Of a stretch of 30,772 nucleotides of DNA, positions 3,122 to 19,473 are shown piece after piece (position 1 is the stretch's first letter; every line of letters begins with the position of its first letter). Under the pieces are notes generated by a model. It searched no databases, was not told the origin of the DNA, and worked only from the letters and a program-made list of their open reading frames with translations. The position numbers and the translations under genes are program-made. Source of the DNA: a virus; the IMG/VR virus record IMGVR_UViG_3300006790_000073, positions 1 to 30,772 of that record. One strand, 5' to 3'.

Positions 3122-4776
3122 TCGCTTGCCTCCCGGCCAAGGACTGCCATGGCCAGCTTGCGCATGCGGCTGTCATCCATCTGTTTGGCGTCGAAGCCCT
3201 GCATCGGGTCGATGATGCCCCGGCTTTGGTCGGCCTTGACCCCTAGCATGTCCATGATGACAGGATCGCTGCCGCCAGCGGTGTGCAGGTAGTGCGCGGT
3301 GACTTGTCTGGTCTGACCGGGGCGGCGCAATCTGCCGATGACCTGTTTGTGCACCTGCGGTGACCAATCCAATTCGCCAAACACCACGTCGCTGCAGTAT
3401 TCCTGCAGGCCGTCAAGGCCAGCGCCAGACCGCAGGGAAATCATCATCACGCGGGCATCGCCCTTGGTGAAGCGTTCGACGTTTCGGCGCTTGCCTGCGG
3501 GGCTTTCTGTCCCGGTGTACATGACCGGGTTATGGTGCTGCAGTGCGCGGTTCCAGATGTCATAGACATCGCGGTGCCAGCCTGCCAGCAGCACGCGGGG
3601 GCTGTCGCGCAGCAGAAGGTCCACATAGGCCGCAACGGAGTCGGCCTTGGCCACGCCTGTCAGCAGGCGCATCTTCATGTCCAATTCCCGCGCAGCTTGT
3701 CCGGCCTTCACGAATGACCCTTCCAGAACGGTCATCGCCAGTGTCTTGAATAGGTCTTCGGCGTCCTGTGCTGCCCCCTCGTTCCAGCCCACTTCCCAAT
3801 CGACCGTGTTCAAGGGCGGCATCTGTGCCGACACCGTTTCATCGAATTCGGTGCGGCGCAGAAAATACCCCTTGTCGCGCAGGTAGGTGCCAAGGGCGTC
3901 CGGGTTTTTGACCGTCTTCCCCCAATCGCACCATTCGCGCATGAATTCATCGCGGTTGCCCAAAAGGCCCGGTTCGATGAACTGCATCACGTTGAAAATT
4001 TCATCGCCGTAGTTGTAGATCGGTGTGGCGGTCAGGCCCATCGAAACATCGGCTGTCGAAGACAGCAGGTCTGCAGCGACACCCTTGGCAGTGCCCCTGC
4101 CGGTGCGCAGTTCCTGCACTTCATCATAAATGACCGTGCGGAACAGGCCGGTGTTGATGACATCGGTCCAGCCCGCGATGTTCGAATACTTGAACACATA
4201 GGCATCTGCCATCGGCAGGTCATAGGGTTTGGTGCCCTTGATGATGTGCGTGCGAAGGTTTGTGAATTCCTCCGCACGGTCTGCCCATTGCCCGGCAAGG
4301 TGGGGCTGCACCACGATAGCGGCTGGCAACGGTGCGCCGCTGGTCAGTGTGCATAAGGCGGAAATCGTTTTCCCAAGGCCAAGGTCATCGCCTAGCAGCA
4401 GGTTCGGGTTCTGAATTGTCAGTGCTGCAGCTTGCTGCTGATAGCCATAAGGCTGTCGGCCTTCCACAAAGCCGGATGCTGTCGCGGGCTTCCAGTCTGG
4501 CATCAGGATGCGTTCGCGTTCGGCGGCTTTCGTTGTGATGCGTTCGACACCGGCAGTCAGGTCGGCTTCATGGGTGTGCTTCAGGGGATAGCGCTGCATG
4601 AACCAGTGCAGGTCCGCGCGGTTTTCGTCGGTGTCGGTCAGAACGATTTCCTGCGCGGTCTTCGGCACCTTTGTGAACAGGCGCTTGAAAGCTATGGCGA
4701 CGTGCGGCTGAAGGTCGGTGATGCGCCAGTGCGGCGGGTTTTCCCCAAGGTTCAGGCTTCCATAGGTGATGGTCAC
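3118..4776 (-). CDS. SNF2-family DNA helicase/ATPase
   Basis: Superfamily 2 DNA-dependent ATPase, about 552 aa from a GTG start at 4776. That start overlaps the nuclease stop as GTGA and is preceded by GGGGAGGGG. A longer frame to 5037 only reads out-of-frame nuclease sequence, so I reject it. Visible motifs are GDDLGLGKT (Walker A, about residues 130-137), YDEVQEL (motif II, DEVQ rather than DEAH, about 217-223), GLTATP (motif III, about 247-252), SLRSGAGLDGLQ (motif V) and QVIGRLRRPGQT (motif VI). Phage SNF2 proteins of this size usually travel with a small PD-(D/E)XK nuclease, as here, and are thought to act in replication or recombination. A role in defence or anti-defence is possible but unsupported. 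Confidence 0.93.
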   Translation of the reverse strand: MTITYGSLNLGENPPHWRITDLQPHVAIAFKRLFTKVPKTAQEIVLTDTDENRADLHWFMQRYPLKHTHEADLTAGVERITTKAAERERILMPDWKPATASGFVEGRQPYGYQQQAAALTIQNPNLLLGDDLGLGKTISALCTLTSGAPLPAAIVVQPHLAGQWADRAEEFTNLRTHIIKGTKPYDLPMADAYVFKYSNIAGWTDVINTGLFRTVIYDEVQELRTGRGTAKGVAADLLSSTADVSMGLTATPIYNYGDEIFNVMQFIEPGLLGNRDEFMREWCDWGKTVKNPDALGTYLRDKGYFLRRTEFDETVSAQMPPLNTVDWEVGWNEGAAQDAEDLFKTLAMTVLEGSFVKAGQAARELDMKMRLLTGVAKADSVAAYVDLLLRDSPRVLLAGWHRDVYDIWNRALQHHNPVMYTGTESPAGKRRNVERFTKGDARVMMISLRSGAGLDGLQEYCSDVVFGELDWSPQVHKQVIGRLRRPGQTRQVTAHYLHTAGGSDPVIMDMLGVKADQSRGIIDPMQGFDAKQMDDSRMRKLAMAVLGREASE

Positions 4777-13103: not shown

Positions 13104-13492
13104 CCCTTCCGGCACCACGCCTTGCGAATGCACCGGCGGCGCATTTTGACTTGGAACCCTTTCACGTCACGGCGCATCGCGAACTGGCGGATTTTCCGCT
13201 GGTCGCGCCGGGCGTTTGTCTGAACCCGATGTGTTCGCGCGTCTTCGCGCCATCGCGCAGCTGGCAGCGCTACTGCTGCGAAACCTGCCGCAAGATGGAT
13301 GAAGCCGAAATGCGCCGCATCGGCCAGAAGGCCGCGCCCGCCCTGCTGGCGTGGCGCATGGGCAAATATGAAAAAAAGGACGCCGGTCTGCGGGCACTAT
13401 CCCGCGCCGGTAGCAACTATGTCACCCGGCTGCAGTCGGAATGGTATCGCGACCGCATGGCACGTGCGTCCGAAAGGAGGCAGCATGACTGA
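13100..13492 (+). CDS. zinc-finger-like protein
   Basis: 130 aa from ATG 13100 (ATGA overlap). The central GVCLNPMCSRVFAPSRSWQRYCCETCRKM contains a C-x4-C and, after about 14 residues, Y-C-C-x2-C, a zinc-binding finger in the style of phage and plant FAR1-like or recombination-directionality motifs (C..........QRYCS..C+). The C-terminal third is basic helix (RLQSEWYRDRMARASERRQ). Nucleic-acid binding is likely. It is adjacent to the probable replication gene. Confidence 0.75.
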   Translation: MTLPAPRLANAPAAHFDLEPFHVTAHRELADFPLVAPGVCLNPMCSRVFAPSRSWQRYCCETCRKMDEAEMRRIGQKAAPALLAWRMGKYEKKDAGLRALSRAGSNYVTRLQSEWYRDRMARASERRQHD

Positions 13493-14135
13493 AGCGGCAA
13501 AGACCATCCGGCTGGTCGATAGCGACACCCTGTATGAATACCCAATCCCGTCCGGCGAACGGCTGGACAGCCATTTCTTCATCACGTGGCGTTTCGACTG
13601 GTGGCTTCATTCCGAATTCCGCCTGCTGGCAGACAAGGAAGTCCGTGCGGTCGGCTTCGACCTTTTCAACATCGCGCAGAAGGAAGACCCGGTGGGCACG
13701 CTTCCTGTCGATGAACGCCTGCTGGCGCGTCTGGCCGGGGAATCGCTGGAAGAATGGCGGCGGCTGATGGAGCGCCCGATTGGCCCGCTCTACAACTGGA
13801 AGCAATGCCGCTGCGACAACGGCCATGTGCGCCTGTATCACCCGGTGGTCCTGAAGATCGCGCAGGATGCCCTTGGGCTGCGCGAAGACCGTCTGGCCAA
13901 GCGCGAAGCCGAACGCGAACGCAAGCGGCTGGACGCGCTGCCAGACAAGATGCTGCGCAGCGGTGCGCCGAAGGGCATGACCGAAGACCCGGTGATGGTG
14001 CTGCAGTTCGACCAGTTCTTGGTGGACCACTTTGACGCCATGGGTCAGCGCCGCCCTGCAATGATCCGCAAGGCGCTGGAAGCATTTTCGCTGGCGCAGG
14101 AAGGCATCGACTGGAAGGCCGAAATCGGCTGCTGA
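13485..14135 (+). CDS. probable replication initiation/helicase-loader protein (DUF1376-like)
   Basis: 216 aa from ATG 13485 with AAAGGAGG upstream. DSHFFITWRFDWWLHSEFRLLA, then KEVRAVGFDLFNIAQKEDPVGTLPVDERLLARLAGES and EWRRLME, resembles the winged-helix N-terminal region of DUF1376 phage replication proteins, where G-x-x-x-L-L-x-x-W and G-T-L-P-D-D motifs are typical. A highly charged helix (LAKREAERERKRLDAL) follows. The gene is followed immediately by a periodic repeat array that looks like an origin, as in initiator-ori pairs. Binding of the product to those repeats is inference. Confidence 0.65.
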   Translation: MTEAAKTIRLVDSDTLYEYPIPSGERLDSHFFITWRFDWWLHSEFRLLADKEVRAVGFDLFNIAQKEDPVGTLPVDERLLARLAGESLEEWRRLMERPIGPLYNWKQCRCDNGHVRLYHPVVLKIAQDALGLREDRLAKREAERERKRLDALPDKMLRSGAPKGMTEDPVMVLQFDQFLVDHFDAMGQRRPAMIRKALEAFSLAQEGIDWKAEIGC

Positions 14136-14136
14136 A

Positions 14137-14224
14137 TTCCTTCCGCGTTTCTTCCGCCGGAAGGAAACTGGAAGGAACGCGGAAAGAAGCCGGAAGGAAT
14201 CCGGAAGAAAAACGGAAGGTTTGG
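14137..14224 (+). repeat. 11-bp iteron array, candidate replication origin
   Basis: Six head-to-tail 11-bp units begin at 14159, 14170, 14181, 14192, 14203 and 14214, each starting GGAAGG or a one-base variant (GGAAAG, GGAAGA). Two units in the opposite orientation precede them at 14137-14147 and 14148-14158 (TTCCTTCCGCG, TTTCTTCCGCC). The 11-bp period equals about one helical turn, so all would face the same side of the DNA. The array starts two bases after the stop codon of the putative initiator. Confidence 0.75.
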
Positions 14225-14259
14225 GATGGAATTTGCACGTTTTGCGCCTCGTTCGTTCC

Positions 14260-14312
14260 GATTTCTTCCGGGCTGAAAGGAAAGAAGAAGAAAATATAAA
14301 AAAACGAAATTG
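14260..14312 (+). other. A/T-rich purine tract next to the iterons
   Basis: Between the array and the next gene, 14272-14312 is mainly A with some G (AAAGGAAAGAAGAAGAAAA then TATAAAAAAACGAAAT). It is the most A/T-rich stretch in this GC-rich region. Iteron plus adjacent A/T-rich segment is the classic layout of a DNA-unwinding element. No gene is seen in 14136-14385. Confidence 0.5.
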
Positions 14313-14385
14313 CCAAAAGCGCCCCAATACCGACCGAAGCGCCATTTGAGACCGGGGCAGATGCAATGAAGAAGGGCAAGAACCG

Positions 14386-14976
14386 ATGGACAGTGCTGAA
14401 CAGGCAGAAGGTGAAAAAAGGGTCAAAGGGGTGCTTATTGACCCTTTGATGCGGCGGGGGCTGGCAAAGCCGACCAGTCTGACAAAGGCGCAGTTTGGCG
14501 ACATGGTTGAAGACCTGTGTGCCCGGCTGGCCTACATGACCGATGCGAACCTGATGGCCTTGGAAGAACAGGTGGCCGCGAATGCGGGCGGCAAGGACAA
14601 AGACCGGTTCCCGATTGGTCAGCGCATTCTGGAATGGGCGGCGCAAATCCAGCCGCCGGGCGATGATGCTTCGCCGCTTATCCGCGCGGTCTTTGCAAAC
14701 CAGCTGGGGCTGGATGCTTTGGCGGGTGGCTGGGCACCGGAACTTCTGGTGGAACTTCGGGTATCGCGGCGCTGGCCGGGGTCGTGGGCGGTGAAGTCCA
14801 TCAAGGACAAGGCGGACAGCGCCATCCGGCAAATGCGGGATCTGGATGCCAAGCTGGCGCGGGGTGACACGCTGGCCCCTGCCGAAGACCAGTGGCGGTC
14901 GCGCCGTCTGGCCACCATCGCCAAGTGCCAGCGCATTGCTGACCTTGGCCAAGGAAGCGGGGGCGCGGCATGCTGA
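14386..14976 (+). CDS. hypothetical protein downstream of candidate origin
   Basis: 196 aa. SLTKAQFGDMVEDLCARLAYMTDANLMALEEQVAAN, then RFPIGQRILEWAAQIQPP, then SPLIRAVFANQLG, is mostly helix. The C-terminal part (SIKDKADSAIRQMRDLDAKLARG) looks like a coiled coil. It could be a replication partner (helicase loader or clamp-type adaptor) by position, but I do not recognise the family. The stop shares a base with the NusG-like start. Confidence 0.65.
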   Translation: MDSAEQAEGEKRVKGVLIDPLMRRGLAKPTSLTKAQFGDMVEDLCARLAYMTDANLMALEEQVAANAGGKDKDRFPIGQRILEWAAQIQPPGDDASPLIRAVFANQLGLDALAGGWAPELLVELRVSRRWPGSWAVKSIKDKADSAIRQMRDLDAKLARGDTLAPAEDQWRSRRLATIAKCQRIADLGQGSGGAAC

Positions 14977-15635
14977 TGGGTAAAATCGAAGCGCAGGAAA
15001 TGCAGTGGTTCGCGTGCCGGGTGAAGCGCAAACAGGTGGGCGGCATCCGCACGGTCACGGTCGGGGGCGAGTTCGAAGTCTACCGCGACCGCGCGGGCCG
15101 CGTCCGCAAGCGGCGGATCGATGGCACGGGCGACCGGGTGTTCCTGCCCGAACACCTTCTGCGCCGTGCGGGGTTCGAAGTCTTCCTGCCGGTGAAGAAG
15201 GTTCTGCGGCGCAAGAACCGCTTCAGCCCGGACAAGGTGTTCGTGTCGCAGCCGCTTCTGGTGGACTGGATGTTCGTGGGCTGGCCGGTCGGGGAAAGCC
15301 GATGGCATGACCTGATGGAACTGGATGTGGTCACCGGCGTCATGGGCACCGGCGGGCGTCCGGTGGAAATCCCGCCTGCCCGCGTGATGCGCCTGATGCG
15401 GCAATGGGGCGGCGGTCAGCTGTCTCCTGAATGTCATCGCTACCTGAAGACGGGCTGCGAATTCGCGGCGGGTGACACCGTTCGCGTGGTGGCGGGTCCG
15501 CTTGATGGTCAGGAGGTCCGGGTGGTCGATGCTGTTGGCCCTTCGGTGCGGGCGCTTCTGAACATTTTGGGCGGCGAAATCGAAGTGGAAATTCGGTCTG
15601 ACCTGCTGGAAGCGGTGCGTTCGGCGGAATGTTAA
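14976..15635 (+). CDS. NusG-like transcription antiterminator
   Basis: 219 aa from ATG 14976. The N-terminal part (EMQWFACRVKRKQVGG, then LLRRAGFEVFLPVKKVLRRK, then VSQPLLVDWMFVGWPV and LDVVTGVMGTGGRPVEIP) corresponds to a NusG NGN domain with a variable insertion of about 35 residues. The C-terminal CEFAAGDTVRVVAGPLDGQEVRVVDAVG, then IEVEIRSDLLEAV, is a KOW domain. NusG paralogues bind RNA polymerase and drive processive or antiterminated transcription (RfaH, LoaP and phage versions). It is the last gene before two intrinsic terminators and the late operon, which suggests a Q-like late regulator. The antitermination role is inference from family and position. Confidence 0.85.
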   Translation: MGKIEAQEMQWFACRVKRKQVGGIRTVTVGGEFEVYRDRAGRVRKRRIDGTGDRVFLPEHLLRRAGFEVFLPVKKVLRRKNRFSPDKVFVSQPLLVDWMFVGWPVGESRWHDLMELDVVTGVMGTGGRPVEIPPARVMRLMRQWGGGQLSPECHRYLKTGCEFAAGDTVRVVAGPLDGQEVRVVDAVGPSVRALLNILGGEIEVEIRSDLLEAVRSAEC

Positions 15636-15857
15636 GCCGCACTCGATATTGTTAAGGGGGGTTGACGGAACACATCATCTTCCCTTAACAGTCGGAATCA
15701 GACGAAGGTTCGGTGGCCACTGTTGAAAGATACATGCCATTGTTCCGGGCGGTCGAAGTCGCATGTGATGCACCCGATTTCGACTGTATGCCGTCAAGTC
15801 CGGGCACCCACGCGAAAGCGCCGCCGCCTGTGACACTGCTGCTGCAATGGATGGAAT

Positions 15858-15885
15858 GGCCCGGCTGGAAAGCGCGGGCCTTTTT
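15858..15885 (+). terminator. intrinsic terminator 1 of late leader
   Basis: GGCCCG (15858-15863) pairs with CGGGCC (15875-15880), a GC-GC extension lies inside, and five T residues follow at 15881-15885. It is on the plus strand in front of the late genes. Confidence 0.75.
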
Positions 15886-15973
15886 CATGTCTGACGGTTG
15901 TGTGAGATTTGAACGCCAGCAACGGAGGCAGCGATGAAGCGCATCTGAACATTCCCTTGTCCCTCGGTTTGAA

Positions 15974-16008
15974 GGCCGGTCGCGGAAATCCTGCGGCTGG
16001 CCTTTTTT
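15974..16008 (+). terminator. intrinsic terminator 2 of late leader
   Basis: A 12-bp stem (15974-15985 with 15991-16002, including some G-U pairs) has a five-base loop and six T residues at 16003-16008. It lies about 90 bp after terminator 1 and 28 bp before the gpZ-like gene. Confidence 0.85.
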
Positions 16009-16036
16009 GTGACGGTAGTCGAACGGAGGGCGGGTG

Positions 16037-16600
16037 ATGTTCAGCGTGGGCGAAGTCGATGTGAAGGGCCTGCAGCGGTTCGAAAACATGCTGGGCGCTT
16101 TGGGGGCGGAAGCGCCTAAGGCCGTGAACCGGGCGCTGAACCGCACCGGCGACATGGCCCGCACGCAAGTCGTGCGCACGCTGGCACGTCAAACCGGACT
16201 GCCACAGAAGACCATCCGCAAGGCGGTCAAGGTCAAGCGGTCCACGTGGTCGGACCTGAACTATACGATGTCCGCCGCTGGCGGTGACGTGTCGCTGAAG
16301 TATTTCAAGCCGCGCGAAACCCGCAAGGGCGTGACCGCGTTCGTGCGGGGCAAGCGCGAACTGTACGAAAGCACCTTCCTGAAGGGTGGCAGCTTCACCC
16401 GTGGGCGGGTGGTTCTGAACATGGGTGGTCATGTCTTCCTTCGGGTTGGCAACCGAACCGACTTGGAAAAGCAAAAGTCCGGTGTGGTCATCCCGGCGGA
16501 AATGGTGGACGGGGCAACCGCCGAAGCGTTCGACCGCACAGTGTCTGAACAGCTTCCGCGCCGATTGGACCATGAAATCAGTCGCCTTCTGGGCCTCTAA
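16037..16600 (+). CDS. phage minor tail protein Z-like (gpZ)
   Basis: 187 aa from ATG 16037, with GGAGGG six bases upstream. VGEVDVKGLQRFENMLGALGAEAPKAVNRALNRTGDMARTQVVR, then LARQTGLPQKTIRKAVKV, is the signature of the GPZ minor tail protein family (lambda gpZ), which acts in tail completion and joining. Residues after 100 (ESTFLKGGSFTRGRVVL) are the beta-rich half. In lambda, Z lies after the head genes, but here it is the first late gene, before terminase. Family relatives also occur in contractile-tail phages, so the protein can still act at the head-tail interface. Confidence 0.85.
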   Translation: MFSVGEVDVKGLQRFENMLGALGAEAPKAVNRALNRTGDMARTQVVRTLARQTGLPQKTIRKAVKVKRSTWSDLNYTMSAAGGDVSLKYFKPRETRKGVTAFVRGKRELYESTFLKGGSFTRGRVVLNMGGHVFLRVGNRTDLEKQKSGVVIPAEMVDGATAEAFDRTVSEQLPRRLDHEISRLLGL

Positions 16601-16777
16601 CCGGCCCCGAAAAGGCAAGGGACCGTACCCCGTCCGGAAAGCACGCGGTGCGGAAGCGGCCCGAGGGTTCGGCAGTCAGACGGCTTTTGCAAAGCCTTAA
16701 CAATAAGGGGATTTCACTTAACGCCGGGCGCTTAACATACCTGCCCCACCGGCCCCGGACAGGATGGACAGGCACAC
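16601..16777 (+). promoter_or_regulatory. gap with clustered CTTAAC hexamers
   Basis: No gene is seen. CTTAAC occurs at 16696-16701, 16717-16722 and 16731-16736, and CCTTA/TAAGG forms a short inverted repeat at 16695-16708. TTAA is rare in this GC-rich window, yet the same hexamer or its complement occurs in the late leader and before the repressor. It may be a regulator site or promoter before the terminase operon. Confidence 0.4.
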
Positions 16778-17503
16778 ATGCAGCCAGCACATCAGGAAAT
16801 GTCGCAGGCCGATTTCGCGCGGGCCATGGGGGTCAGCCGCGCGGCGGTCAGTCAGTGGAAGTCGAAGGACATCCTGCGCGACGATGCGTTCACCAAGCCG
16901 GGTAAGTCCGGCAAGATCATTTACCCGGTCGCGGTTGAACAGGTCCGGCGCAACCGTGACATCGGTCAATCGCTTGGCAATGGCATCGCGACCCGGACCA
17001 CGGTGGATGACGCACCGCAGGTGCAACCCACCGCCGCGCCAGACCCTGCGCCTGCGCCGGTCCAGCAGCCAAGCCTGCCGATGGCCGAAGCCGCCCCGGT
17101 TGAACAGGCCGCGCCCGAAGCGCCTGCCGCGTCATCGACCCCGGCTGCGCCAAAGCCCGATACCGTCGAAGACCAGCTGAAGCGGGCCAAGCTGGAAGAA
17201 CAGCTGCGCCGCAATCGAATTCAGGCGGCGGATGAAGCGCTGCGGCAGGGCATGCTGATGTCTGCCGACGATGCCCGCGAACAGATGACCCGCATCGCGG
17301 GGATGATGCTTCAGATTTTCGAAGGCGCTTTGCCTGACTTTGCCGCCGCGATGGCCGCACAGTTCGACATTCCGCAGCGCGATGTCCTGCACCTGCTGCG
17401 GGCGGAATTCAAAAAGGTCCGCAAGACGGCGGCGATGAAAGAACGCGCCCGCGCGGATGAAGTGGAAAAGGACGTGGCCACCTCGGTTGAACTGGATGCC
17501 TGA
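16778..17503 (+). CDS. terminase small subunit-like (Nu1-type)
   Basis: 241 aa. The N-terminal MSQADFARAMGVSRAAVSQWKSKDIL is a helix-turn-helix/winged-helix like lambda Nu1, which recognises the packaging site. An Ala/Pro-rich linker of about 80 residues follows (PAPAPVQQPSLPMAEAAPVEQ). Then a helical part (LKRAKLEEQLRRNRIQAADE and MLQIFEGALPDFAAAMAA) probably carries oligomerisation and large-subunit contact. The stop shares a base with the large-subunit start. DNA recognition and packaging start are family knowledge; the cos or pac sequence is not identified. Confidence 0.85.
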   Translation: MQPAHQEMSQADFARAMGVSRAAVSQWKSKDILRDDAFTKPGKSGKIIYPVAVEQVRRNRDIGQSLGNGIATRTTVDDAPQVQPTAAPDPAPAPVQQPSLPMAEAAPVEQAAPEAPAASSTPAAPKPDTVEDQLKRAKLEEQLRRNRIQAADEALRQGMLMSADDAREQMTRIAGMMLQIFEGALPDFAAAMAAQFDIPQRDVLHLLRAEFKKVRKTAAMKERARADEVEKDVATSVELDA

Positions 17504-19473
17504 TGCTGGATGTCGCTGTCACAAGCGCCGAATGGATGGCGCACGATGTTCTGGCGGATGTCATCGACCCGCCGCCGCCTGTCGATTACCTGACATGGGC
17601 AGAAGAAAACATCGTCTTTTCGTCGCGGGAAAGTCCGCTGCCCGGCCCGTACAACCGGGAACGCTTCAGCTACTTTGACGAAATCCTGCGGGCCTTGTCG
17701 CCCGATGACCCGTGCCGGGTTGTCACCTTGTCGAAATCAGCGCAGCTGGGCGGCACGGTGCTGGCCAATATCTTCACCGGCGGTTCCATGGACATGGACC
17801 CCGGCGATTTCCTCTATGTCCACCCGACCGACGAAAACGCGCGGCGGTGGTCGAAGATGAAGCTGGCCCCGATGCTGAAAGGCACCACGGCGCTGCGCAA
17901 GATTTTCCCGATGAAGGCCCGCGACGGTCAGGATTCGGTTTTCTACAAAGAGCGCCGCGACGGTCGCGGGGCTATCCAGATTTCAGGCGCGAATTCGCCC
18001 GCTTCGCTTTCGCAAGTGTCCATGTCCCGGCAGGTTCAGGATGACCTTGCCAAGTGGGATATGAACAGCGCTGGCGACCCGGAAACCCAAGCGGACAGCC
18101 GCAGTCAGGGTTACGAATTCGCCAAGATTTTCAAGATTTCGACGCCCATGGTGGTTCCGGGGTGTCGCATCACAAAGAACTTTGAGTCCGGCAGTCAGGA
18201 ATTTCTGCACGTTCCATGCCCGCATGACGAATGCGGCCACATGCAGGTGCTGGAATGGGAAAACATGCTGGCCAGTCTGGATGAAGACCATCCGGAGCGG
18301 GCGCATTTCACCTGTGAAGGCTGCGGGGCTTCGATTGAAGAACACCACCGCCCGAAGATGCTGCGGGGAGCCAAGTGGATCGCCGCGAACCCGAAGATGA
18401 AGCGGGTGCACCGGTCATTCTACATCTGGTCGGCCTATTCGCTGCTGCAGTCCTTTGAACGCATCGCGCGGTCATGGCTGTCGGCCAAGGGCGACCCGCC
18501 AAAGGAGCAGACCTTCTGGAATGACGTGGTGGGCAAAGCCTATCGCGTCTTGGGCGAAGCGCCGCCATGGGAAGACATCCGCGACCGTGCGTCGGAATCG
18601 GATTATGCCCACGGCACCATCCCTGCGGGCTTCCCGTTGCTGACCTGCGGTGTGGACTGTCAGGGCGACCGGGTGGAATGGCAGGTGGTCGCGTGGGGTC
18701 AGAACAAGCGCCGCGCGGTGGTCGAATATGGCGTGTTCAATGGGCACATTTCCGATGAAGGGTGCCAGTCGAAACTGAACGGCCTGCTGCGGCAGGGCTT
18801 TCGGAACGCCTATGGCCGGAAGGTTGAAATCGACCTGCTGGCCATCGACGGCAACGCCTACACCGAAGACGTTTGGGATTGGGCGCGTCGGCACCCGGCA
18901 TCCCGCGTCATCATGGTGCGTGGTGTGCATCCTGAAAGCGCCCCGCTGCTGGCGCAGGTGAAGAAGGAACGGAATCGGCGCGGCAAGATCGTTCGCTATT
19001 CGAAGCGCTTCTTCAACTTCGCATCGTCGGTTCTGAAGATGGGGCTTTACCGGAACCTGAAGAAGACAGATCCGGAAGAACGCGGGTTCATCGCCCTGCC
19101 GAAAGGGTTGGAAGATGAATTCTTTCGTCAGCTGACGGCGGAAAGCCGGAAGGCGCAGAAAGCGAAATCGGGCTTCACCCGGTATCTGTGGGTGAAGGAC
19201 CCGAATCAAGCGAACGAAGGTTTGGACACCCACCTTCAGGCGGAAGCTGCGGCCATTCGCCTTGGGGTGCGCAATCTGCCGGACACCGAATGGGACCGCC
19301 TGATGACGGAACGCGAACGCCCGCCGGAAGATGTGCAGGGCGACTTCGAAGACCTGCTGATGGCGGCGCAGCCGCAAGCCGAACAGGTGGCGGATGAAAA
19401 GCCCGCCGAAGACGAAACTGAAGCGCAGGCCAAAGAGCGTGCGCGGTCGAAGTGGAAACGAAGAACTTCTTGA
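17503..19473 (+). CDS. terminase large subunit (GpA family)
   Basis: 656 aa, the usual size for GpA terminases (about 640 aa). It cuts concatemeric DNA and drives it into the procapsid. The ATPase P-loop is SKSAQLGGT (residues 77-85), in which the usual Lys-Thr/Ser pair is replaced, as in several GpA members with an upstream Lys (Lys78). The acidic position around QDD (179-181) is Walker B-like. A four-cysteine zinc finger is formed by Cys239, Cys244, Cys271 and Cys274 (CPHDEC and CEGC). The C-terminal nuclease has GVDCQGDRVEWQVVAWG and IDLLAIDGNAYTEDVWDW. The C-terminal tail is acidic and Glu/Ala-rich, and probably contacts the portal. Start ATG 17503 overlaps the small-subunit stop. Confidence 0.95.
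   Translation: MLDVAVTSAEWMAHDVLADVIDPPPPVDYLTWAEENIVFSSRESPLPGPYNRERFSYFDEILRALSPDDPCRVVTLSKSAQLGGTVLANIFTGGSMDMDPGDFLYVHPTDENARRWSKMKLAPMLKGTTALRKIFPMKARDGQDSVFYKERRDGRGAIQISGANSPASLSQVSMSRQVQDDLAKWDMNSAGDPETQADSRSQGYEFAKIFKISTPMVVPGCRITKNFESGSQEFLHVPCPHDECGHMQVLEWENMLASLDEDHPERAHFTCEGCGASIEEHHRPKMLRGAKWIAANPKMKRVHRSFYIWSAYSLLQSFERIARSWLSAKGDPPKEQTFWNDVVGKAYRVLGEAPPWEDIRDRASESDYAHGTIPAGFPLLTCGVDCQGDRVEWQVVAWGQNKRRAVVEYGVFNGHISDEGCQSKLNGLLRQGFRNAYGRKVEIDLLAIDGNAYTEDVWDWARRHPASRVIMVRGVHPESAPLLAQVKKERNRRGKIVRYSKRFFNFASSVLKMGLYRNLKKTDPEERGFIALPKGLEDEFFRQLTAESRKAQKAKSGFTRYLWVKDPNQANEGLDTHLQAEAAAIRLGVRNLPDTEWDRLMTERERPPEDVQGDFEDLLMAAQPQAEQVADEKPAEDETEAQAKERARSKWKRRTS

Follow-up and report, generated by a model that had tools for sequence, protein, structure and literature searches.

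The window, the whole stretch of DNA that we analysed, is an IMG/VR virus record of 30,772 bases. It contains the following features:

31-101: tRNA
221-1237, - strand: integrase
9052-9423: Cro/C1-type HTH protein
9760-10281: CII-like protein
14386-14976, + strand: conserved gene for a 196-aa protein of unassigned function, directly upstream of the NusG-like gene and overlapping it
14970-15635, + strand: NusG-like gene, encoding a 221-aa phage NusG-family protein (NGN domain and KOW-like C-terminal domain)
15649-15659, + strand: TTGTTAAGGGG element just 5' of the -35 box, from the alignment
15662-15690, + strand: probable late promoter, TTGACG (15662-15667), 17-bp spacer and TTAACA (15685-15690)
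15701-15850, + strand: conserved structured leader RNA, type A, from covariation and a covariance model
15858-15885, + strand: terminator 1, GGCCCGGC-loop-GCGCGGGCC followed by T5, with a bulged G (hairpin 15858-15880, -16.6 kcal/mol)
15934-15948, + strand: MKRI-stop frame after a Shine-Dalgarno-like GGAGG
15971-16009, + strand: terminator 2, 15-bp stem followed by a T-run (hairpin 15971-16005, -26.4 kcal/mol)
16037-16600, + strand: first late gene, encoding a neck/minor tail Z-type protein (PF06763, E=1.9e-10; phrog_27, E=1.4e-30)

The late genes begin at about 16037 and encode the neck/minor tail Z-type protein, the small and large terminase subunits (GpA type) and the portal. The start of the first late gene was placed at 16037 on the basis of a conserved ATGTTCAGC and is probable. 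The NusG-like gene is the last gene ahead of this operon, as the initial annotation had stated. Close kin of the window are prophages of Rhodobacteraceae and allied genera, found in Phaeobacter, Antarcticimicrobium, Palleronia, Thalassovita, Ruegeria, Sulfitobacter and other hosts. Among the prophages are L024 and L025, in Phaeobacter sp. 11ANDIMAR09 and Rhodobacteraceae KLH11. A tblastn search of 50,697 phage records with three members of the NusG-like family gave 0 matches.

The NusG-like protein contains an NGN domain (PF02357, E=3.3e-7, 31.2 bits, cut-off 22.2), and PF02357 is matched by 15 of 15 family members. The initial annotation had assigned it both NGN and KOW domains. The first is above its cut-off, whereas the Pfam KOW match is weak, with 17.3 bits against a cut-off of 22.3, and the C-terminal domain is KOW-like in the AF2 model. 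This model (mean pLDDT 78.3) shows an NGN fold followed by a β-barrel C-terminal domain. In the PDB, the folds that match it best are those of NusG and RfaH chains, and the barrel resembles NusG C-terminal domains. The protein and 15 of 15 relatives match phrog_6386 (E=1.2e-15 for the window protein), whose label, ‘transcription antiterminator’, is an annotation name only and says nothing of demonstrated function.

Comparison with the named NusG subfamilies in NCBIfam gave scores below all cut-offs. The window protein reaches 23.0 bits with the housekeeping NusG model (TIGR00922, equivalog, cut-off 135.7), 26.8 bits with the RfaH model (TIGR01955, equivalog, cut-off 144.5) and 40.5 bits with the UpxY model (NF033644, subfamily, cut-off 100). 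It has no match at E<=0.01 to the LoaP model (NF033641), and the relative L055 scores 21.7 against 125 with that model. Because the NusG, RfaH and UpxY scores are far under the cut-offs and no LoaP match is seen, the protein is a NusG paralogue that belongs to none of the named subfamilies. Each of the 5 tested host genomes has a core NusG (E about 1e-25 to 1e-27) in addition to the weak-scoring phage one. By these sequence criteria, the NusG-like protein is a paralogue distinct from the host’s own NusG.

A conserved insert of ~35 residues, rich in Arg and Lys, is located around residues 24-58, just N-terminal to the NusG-profile match. It is conceivable, as a guess, that this basic insert binds nucleic acid. 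Some NusG-like proteins carry a Cys-rich, zinc-ribbon-like extension at the C-terminus (L015, 6001-6870; L038, 4980-5855; L055, 2622-3524); the extensions in L038 and L055 have no NCBIfam match. By tblastn, the 196-aa gene precedes the NusG-like gene in most loci and is missing in L036-L038. Its product has no Pfam, PHROG or NCBIfam match, and may act together with the NusG-like protein.

Alignment of the relatives revealed a probable sigma-70-type late promoter, TTGAC[G/C]-17 bp-TTAACA, which begins 26 bp past the stop codon of the NusG-like gene. Transcription from it would start at about 15697. The -35 and -10 boxes and the 17-bp spacing are kept across relatives, and the spacer sequences diverge. 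The TTGTTAAGGGG element accompanies leader types A, B and part of C, and the window holds one match to it, with 0 expected. The distance from the -35 box to terminator 1 is 192-197 nt in type A and 181-183 nt in type B. Extra sequence or genes separate the NusG-like gene from the promoter in L013, L015, L028, L119, L122 and L123, and in these loci the promoter, leader and late gene remain together. Other inserts sit behind terminator 1, and none lies between the promoter and the leader end in any locus seen. The near-constant spacing and the lack of inserts argue for a late transcription start ahead of the terminators. As the promoter is upstream of both, late transcription probably must cross both. 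Neither the promoter nor the structured RNA behind it was noticed in the initial annotation.

Two terminators between two operons, the second ending some 28 nt short of the first late gene, might merely insulate early from late transcription, with the late operon beginning downstream of 16009. The promoter conserved upstream of terminator 1, its near-constant spacing and the covarying RNA in between speak against such insulation, which we regard as very improbable. A generic scan of the + strand from 13000 to 18000 also found no sigma-70-like site, a result of little weight because the same scan missed the promoter at 15662-15690. A late start after 16009, the outcome that the initial annotation had set against its own proposal, is thus made unlikely.

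The leader RNA in the window belongs to type A. The type A consensus, built from fifteen leaders with 13 distinct cores, is composed of a three-helix junction, a 3' hairpin capped by a GNNA-type loop and a small CTGCTGCTGCA stem. Pairing is seen in 94.9% of cells, and double compensatory changes occur in 21 of 46 pairs; slid controls gave 25-46% paired and 3-11 doubly changed pairs. The type A covariance model, R1, scores the window leader at 173 bits. In type B, 95.6% are paired and 13 of 39 pairs are doubly changed. The type C leader (AGGAYGAYCC...CCCTGYCAA) precedes the late region in L036-L038, L072, L119, L121-L126, L128, L129 and L134. Folding type C and C-like leaders jointly yielded only a weak consensus. 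The type A model matches the type C 3' hairpin weakly but significantly (2e-4 in L037, 1.6e-5 in L134), a hint of common origin. The three types share short motifs alone, so a common function for them can only be inferred. No match at the gathering score was found in Rfam 15 (4227 families) for the leaders of the window and 15 relatives, and the best sub-threshold matches in the leader are noise. The leader RNA was previously uncatalogued.

A structured RNA immediately 5' of an intrinsic terminator could also be a riboswitch-like or leader-peptide attenuator that governs terminator 1 without a dedicated protein, and in the window a 74-aa open frame starting at 15713 spans terminator 1. The substitutions among relatives show no third-codon-position bias in this frame (differences 89/89/78), and indels shift it in L012, L013 and L034. 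A coding or leader-peptide role was thus rejected, and the description of the leader as free of genes stands. A riboswitch-type alternative pairing with terminator 1 was rejected as well, as no conserved partner was found. When the 3' arm of terminator 1 is blocked, the partners of the 5' arm scatter and the folds are 7-14 kcal/mol less stable. Together with the lack of an Rfam riboswitch match, these results make an attenuator extremely improbable.

The two strong terminators that had been noted in the leader were confirmed by folding. In a fold-based scan of the whole + strand of the window under one rule, they are the only compact strong ones. The third match, at 4578, is a long imperfect fold, and no further such compact terminator is present on the + strand within the late operon. 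Dinucleotide shuffles of the leader gave a mean of 0.013 terminators, compared to 2 observed. A generic terminator scanner missed both, probably due to the bulge and G-U pairs. Terminator 1 is almost letter-identical in most relatives, with changes that preserve pairs, such as AGCCCGGC...GCGGGCT in L030 and a loop-closing T-A to G-C in L010. Terminator 2 is kept in many relatives and absent from several, including L006, L012 and L028, suggesting that terminator 1 is the core element. In L006 (817-1091), the DNA that separates the T-runs of terminators 1 and 2 is missing and terminator 1 alone is retained, as if the DNA had been lost by recombination between them.

No clear terminator 1 is found behind the leader in the distant relatives L036, L122 and L124, although the RNA is present. 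With terminator 2 often missing, this indicates that control of termination may not be the universal role. The system may also act on other termination or pausing.

To see how closely these elements are tied to each other, we collected their occurrences in viral, plasmid and bacterial sequences. A profile search of IMG/VR gave 38 NusG-like loci, 37 of them usable and one cut inside the gene. The promoter and leader follow the NusG-like gene in 35 of the 37. Two of the 35 leaders (L117/L049 and L131/L045) fit none of types A-C. The leader was not found in L120 and L133 within the sequence covered. Scans of IMG/VR for the leader alone (types A, B and C) found 15 stretches, and every one is on a contig that bears the NusG-like gene. 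The initial annotation had proposed synteny in related prophages as a check, and the gene, promoter and leader RNA do recur together in dozens of relatives. These loci share ancestry, so the counts are not counts of independent events. Pattern matches in L019 and L022 (promoter motif) and in L046/L053 (terminator motif) were discarded as chance matches in unrelated DNA.

Among 72,556 plasmid records, a search with the leader DNA found a single one, a 39-kb Leisingera phage-plasmid. This record has a near full-length match to the NusG-like protein, and no other plasmid record does. Its leader, which was left out of model building, fits the type A model with E=6e-25. Its late genes are of the HK97 type with a ClpP-like protease and are unrelated to those of the window. 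The late genes are also unrelated in L038 and L132, as judged from ORF sequence. The occurrence of the same elements ahead of unrelated late genes suggests that the cassette moves as a unit. In 397 Rhodobacteraceae genomes, strong matches to the NusG subfamily were found in three (G001, G020 and G335). The type A model matches G001 alone, the type B pattern matches G020 alone, and the leader in G335 is type C-like. The type C pattern gave 4 matches in these genomes, no more than its reversed-pattern control, and is uninformative. As these matches are at chance level, only a few cases document the linkage outside viral records.

Compact, covarying and flanked by a promoter and a terminator, the leader RNA resembles an sRNA gene. 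It might then be an independent phage small RNA, released at terminator 1 and directed at a target of its own, with the NusG-like protein acting elsewhere or generally; the lambda 6S transcript is the case for comparison. We consider this unlikely. Such a gene could sit anywhere, yet the leader precedes the late operon, and it is near-strictly linked to the NusG-like gene even where the late genes are unrelated.

The sequence comparisons support the NusG-family protein, the promoter, the covarying RNA, the terminators and their linkage. From these, we propose, as the likely mechanism, an antitermination switch for the late genes, with the leader RNA serving to recruit the NusG paralogue. A short transcript from the promoter at 15662-15690 would fold into the ~150-nt RNA. 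By default, it would end at terminator 1 (~185-190 nt), and read-through would end at terminator 2 (~310 nt). The upstream operon would supply the phage NusG paralogue, which would be loaded onto the transcribing polymerase when the leader RNA emerges, most likely through contact with this RNA or with an RNA-polymerase complex that it forms. The modified polymerase would then run past the terminators and transcribe the morphogenesis operon from 16037 onward, and the effect would presumably be processive. Parts of this mechanism differ in their certainty. We are fairly confident that the NusG-like protein acts on this leader. That the leader RNA is its loading site is a less secure, though still favored, assignment. 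We lean only slightly toward the broader reading that the leader RNAs, of at least three types (A, B and C), are the loading platform of a distinct subfamily of phage NusG paralogues, and that together they form a portable antitermination cassette for the late genes of otherwise unrelated Rhodobacteraceae phages.

The LoaP system of Bacillus velezensis (dfn/mln operons) offers the closest comparison. LoaP, itself a NusG paralogue, depends on a hairpin in the leader RNA to override an intrinsic terminator (PMC12691694). In both systems, a specialised NusG-family protein is encoded beside its target operon, and the target leader carries an RNA element and an intrinsic terminator. The LoaP RNA is a small UNCG-type hairpin, whereas the RNA here is ~150 nt, contains several helices and has no UNCG-closed hairpin in its covariation-supported consensus, as judged from the consensus structure. 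The target also differs, a phage late operon in Alphaproteobacteria here and an antibiotic cluster for LoaP. Since the RNA is larger and lacks the UNCG hairpin, and the protein does not match the NCBIfam LoaP model, we claim at most that the system works like LoaP.

The initial annotation had described the locus as a Q-like late switch. In lambda, the corresponding elements are pR', the leader, tR' and Q. The likeness is in layout only: a late promoter, a ~190-nt leader ended by an intrinsic terminator, and a regulator gene directly ahead of the late operon. Unlike lambda Q, the regulator here has a NusG fold, and the conserved feature is a folded RNA instead of a known Q-binding DNA site. Among the window proteins scanned, no Q-type antiterminator family was found in the Pfam and PHROG matches. 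Of the logic first proposed, antitermination by a dedicated NusG paralogue at terminators in the late leader is the reading with the best support, and synteny in dozens of relatives adds to it, but Q is not the closest analogue. What is conserved from promoter to terminator is a ~150-nt folded RNA, which recalls LoaP- or put-type systems, and the switch logic is best read as closer to LoaP than to lambda Q.

The put RNA of HK022 suppresses termination and, like the leader, is located near the transcript start. It acts without a protein and is thus a known protein-free precedent (PMC9378689). The leader RNA, highly conserved, might likewise modify polymerase itself, with the NusG-like protein a mere helper or dispensable. 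We find this distinctly unlikely, because it leaves unexplained the near-constant presence of the NusG paralogue linked to the RNA.

Other specialised systems also invite comparison. RfaH, ActX and UpxY are specialised NusG paralogues for long operons, and the best NCBIfam scores of the window protein are those for UpxY and RfaH, both far under cut-off. RfaH is loaded at ops, an element in the non-template DNA, and overcomes intrinsic terminators inefficiently (PMC7819879). In the Caulobacter gene transfer agent, GafZ provides an alphaproteobacterial case of antitermination in a phage-like late cluster (PMC11150451). Unlike the regulator here, GafZ is not a NusG paralogue; it is a DNA-binding protein that acts at the promoter and works with host NusG.

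The locus looks like an RNA-guided on/off switch ahead of virus-particle genes in viruses of marine Rhodobacteraceae. To our knowledge, the phage late switches understood in detail use Q-type proteins or initiation activators. Pairing a NusG paralogue with a folded leader RNA would, if true, be a different solution. The specialised NusG paralogues we know of come mainly from antibiotic, capsule and pilus operons, and few of their target signals are known. We found no report of this phage NusG subfamily or leader RNA in a search of the open-access literature. The window protein, with a type A leader, and the L005 protein, with a type B leader, are 89% identical. With dozens of natural RNA/protein pairs, and near-identical proteins that go with different leader types, recognition can be tested by swapping.

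Several additional features were observed in and around these loci. Relatives carry accessory genes inserted in the gap that separates the NusG-like gene from the late promoter (L013, 6678-9137; L028, 5753-7590; L119, 3479-6183; L120, 3594-7248; L122; L123). Judged by eye, ORFs in the L120 insert look like an HNH protein, a dGTPase and a nucleotidyltransferase. Right behind terminator 1, intact small genes starting with MKR, MKT or MKK are found in L026, L030, L038, L045, L049, L072 and L126 and encode an apparent signal peptide. The MKRI-stop frame in the window is probably a remnant of this gene that retains its start alone.

A non-coding stretch of ~150 bp within 16601-16777, 5' of the terminase small-subunit gene, is strongly conserved. 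It holds up to three regularly spaced CTTAAC(A/G) repeats and is possibly a packaging (cos/pac) site. A TTAACA motif flanks the late promoter too, and the window contains six SYTTAACA sites, compared to 0.82 expected. In the relative L009, a C4 antisense RNA is located at 4004-4090 (Rfam RF01695, 59.3 bits).
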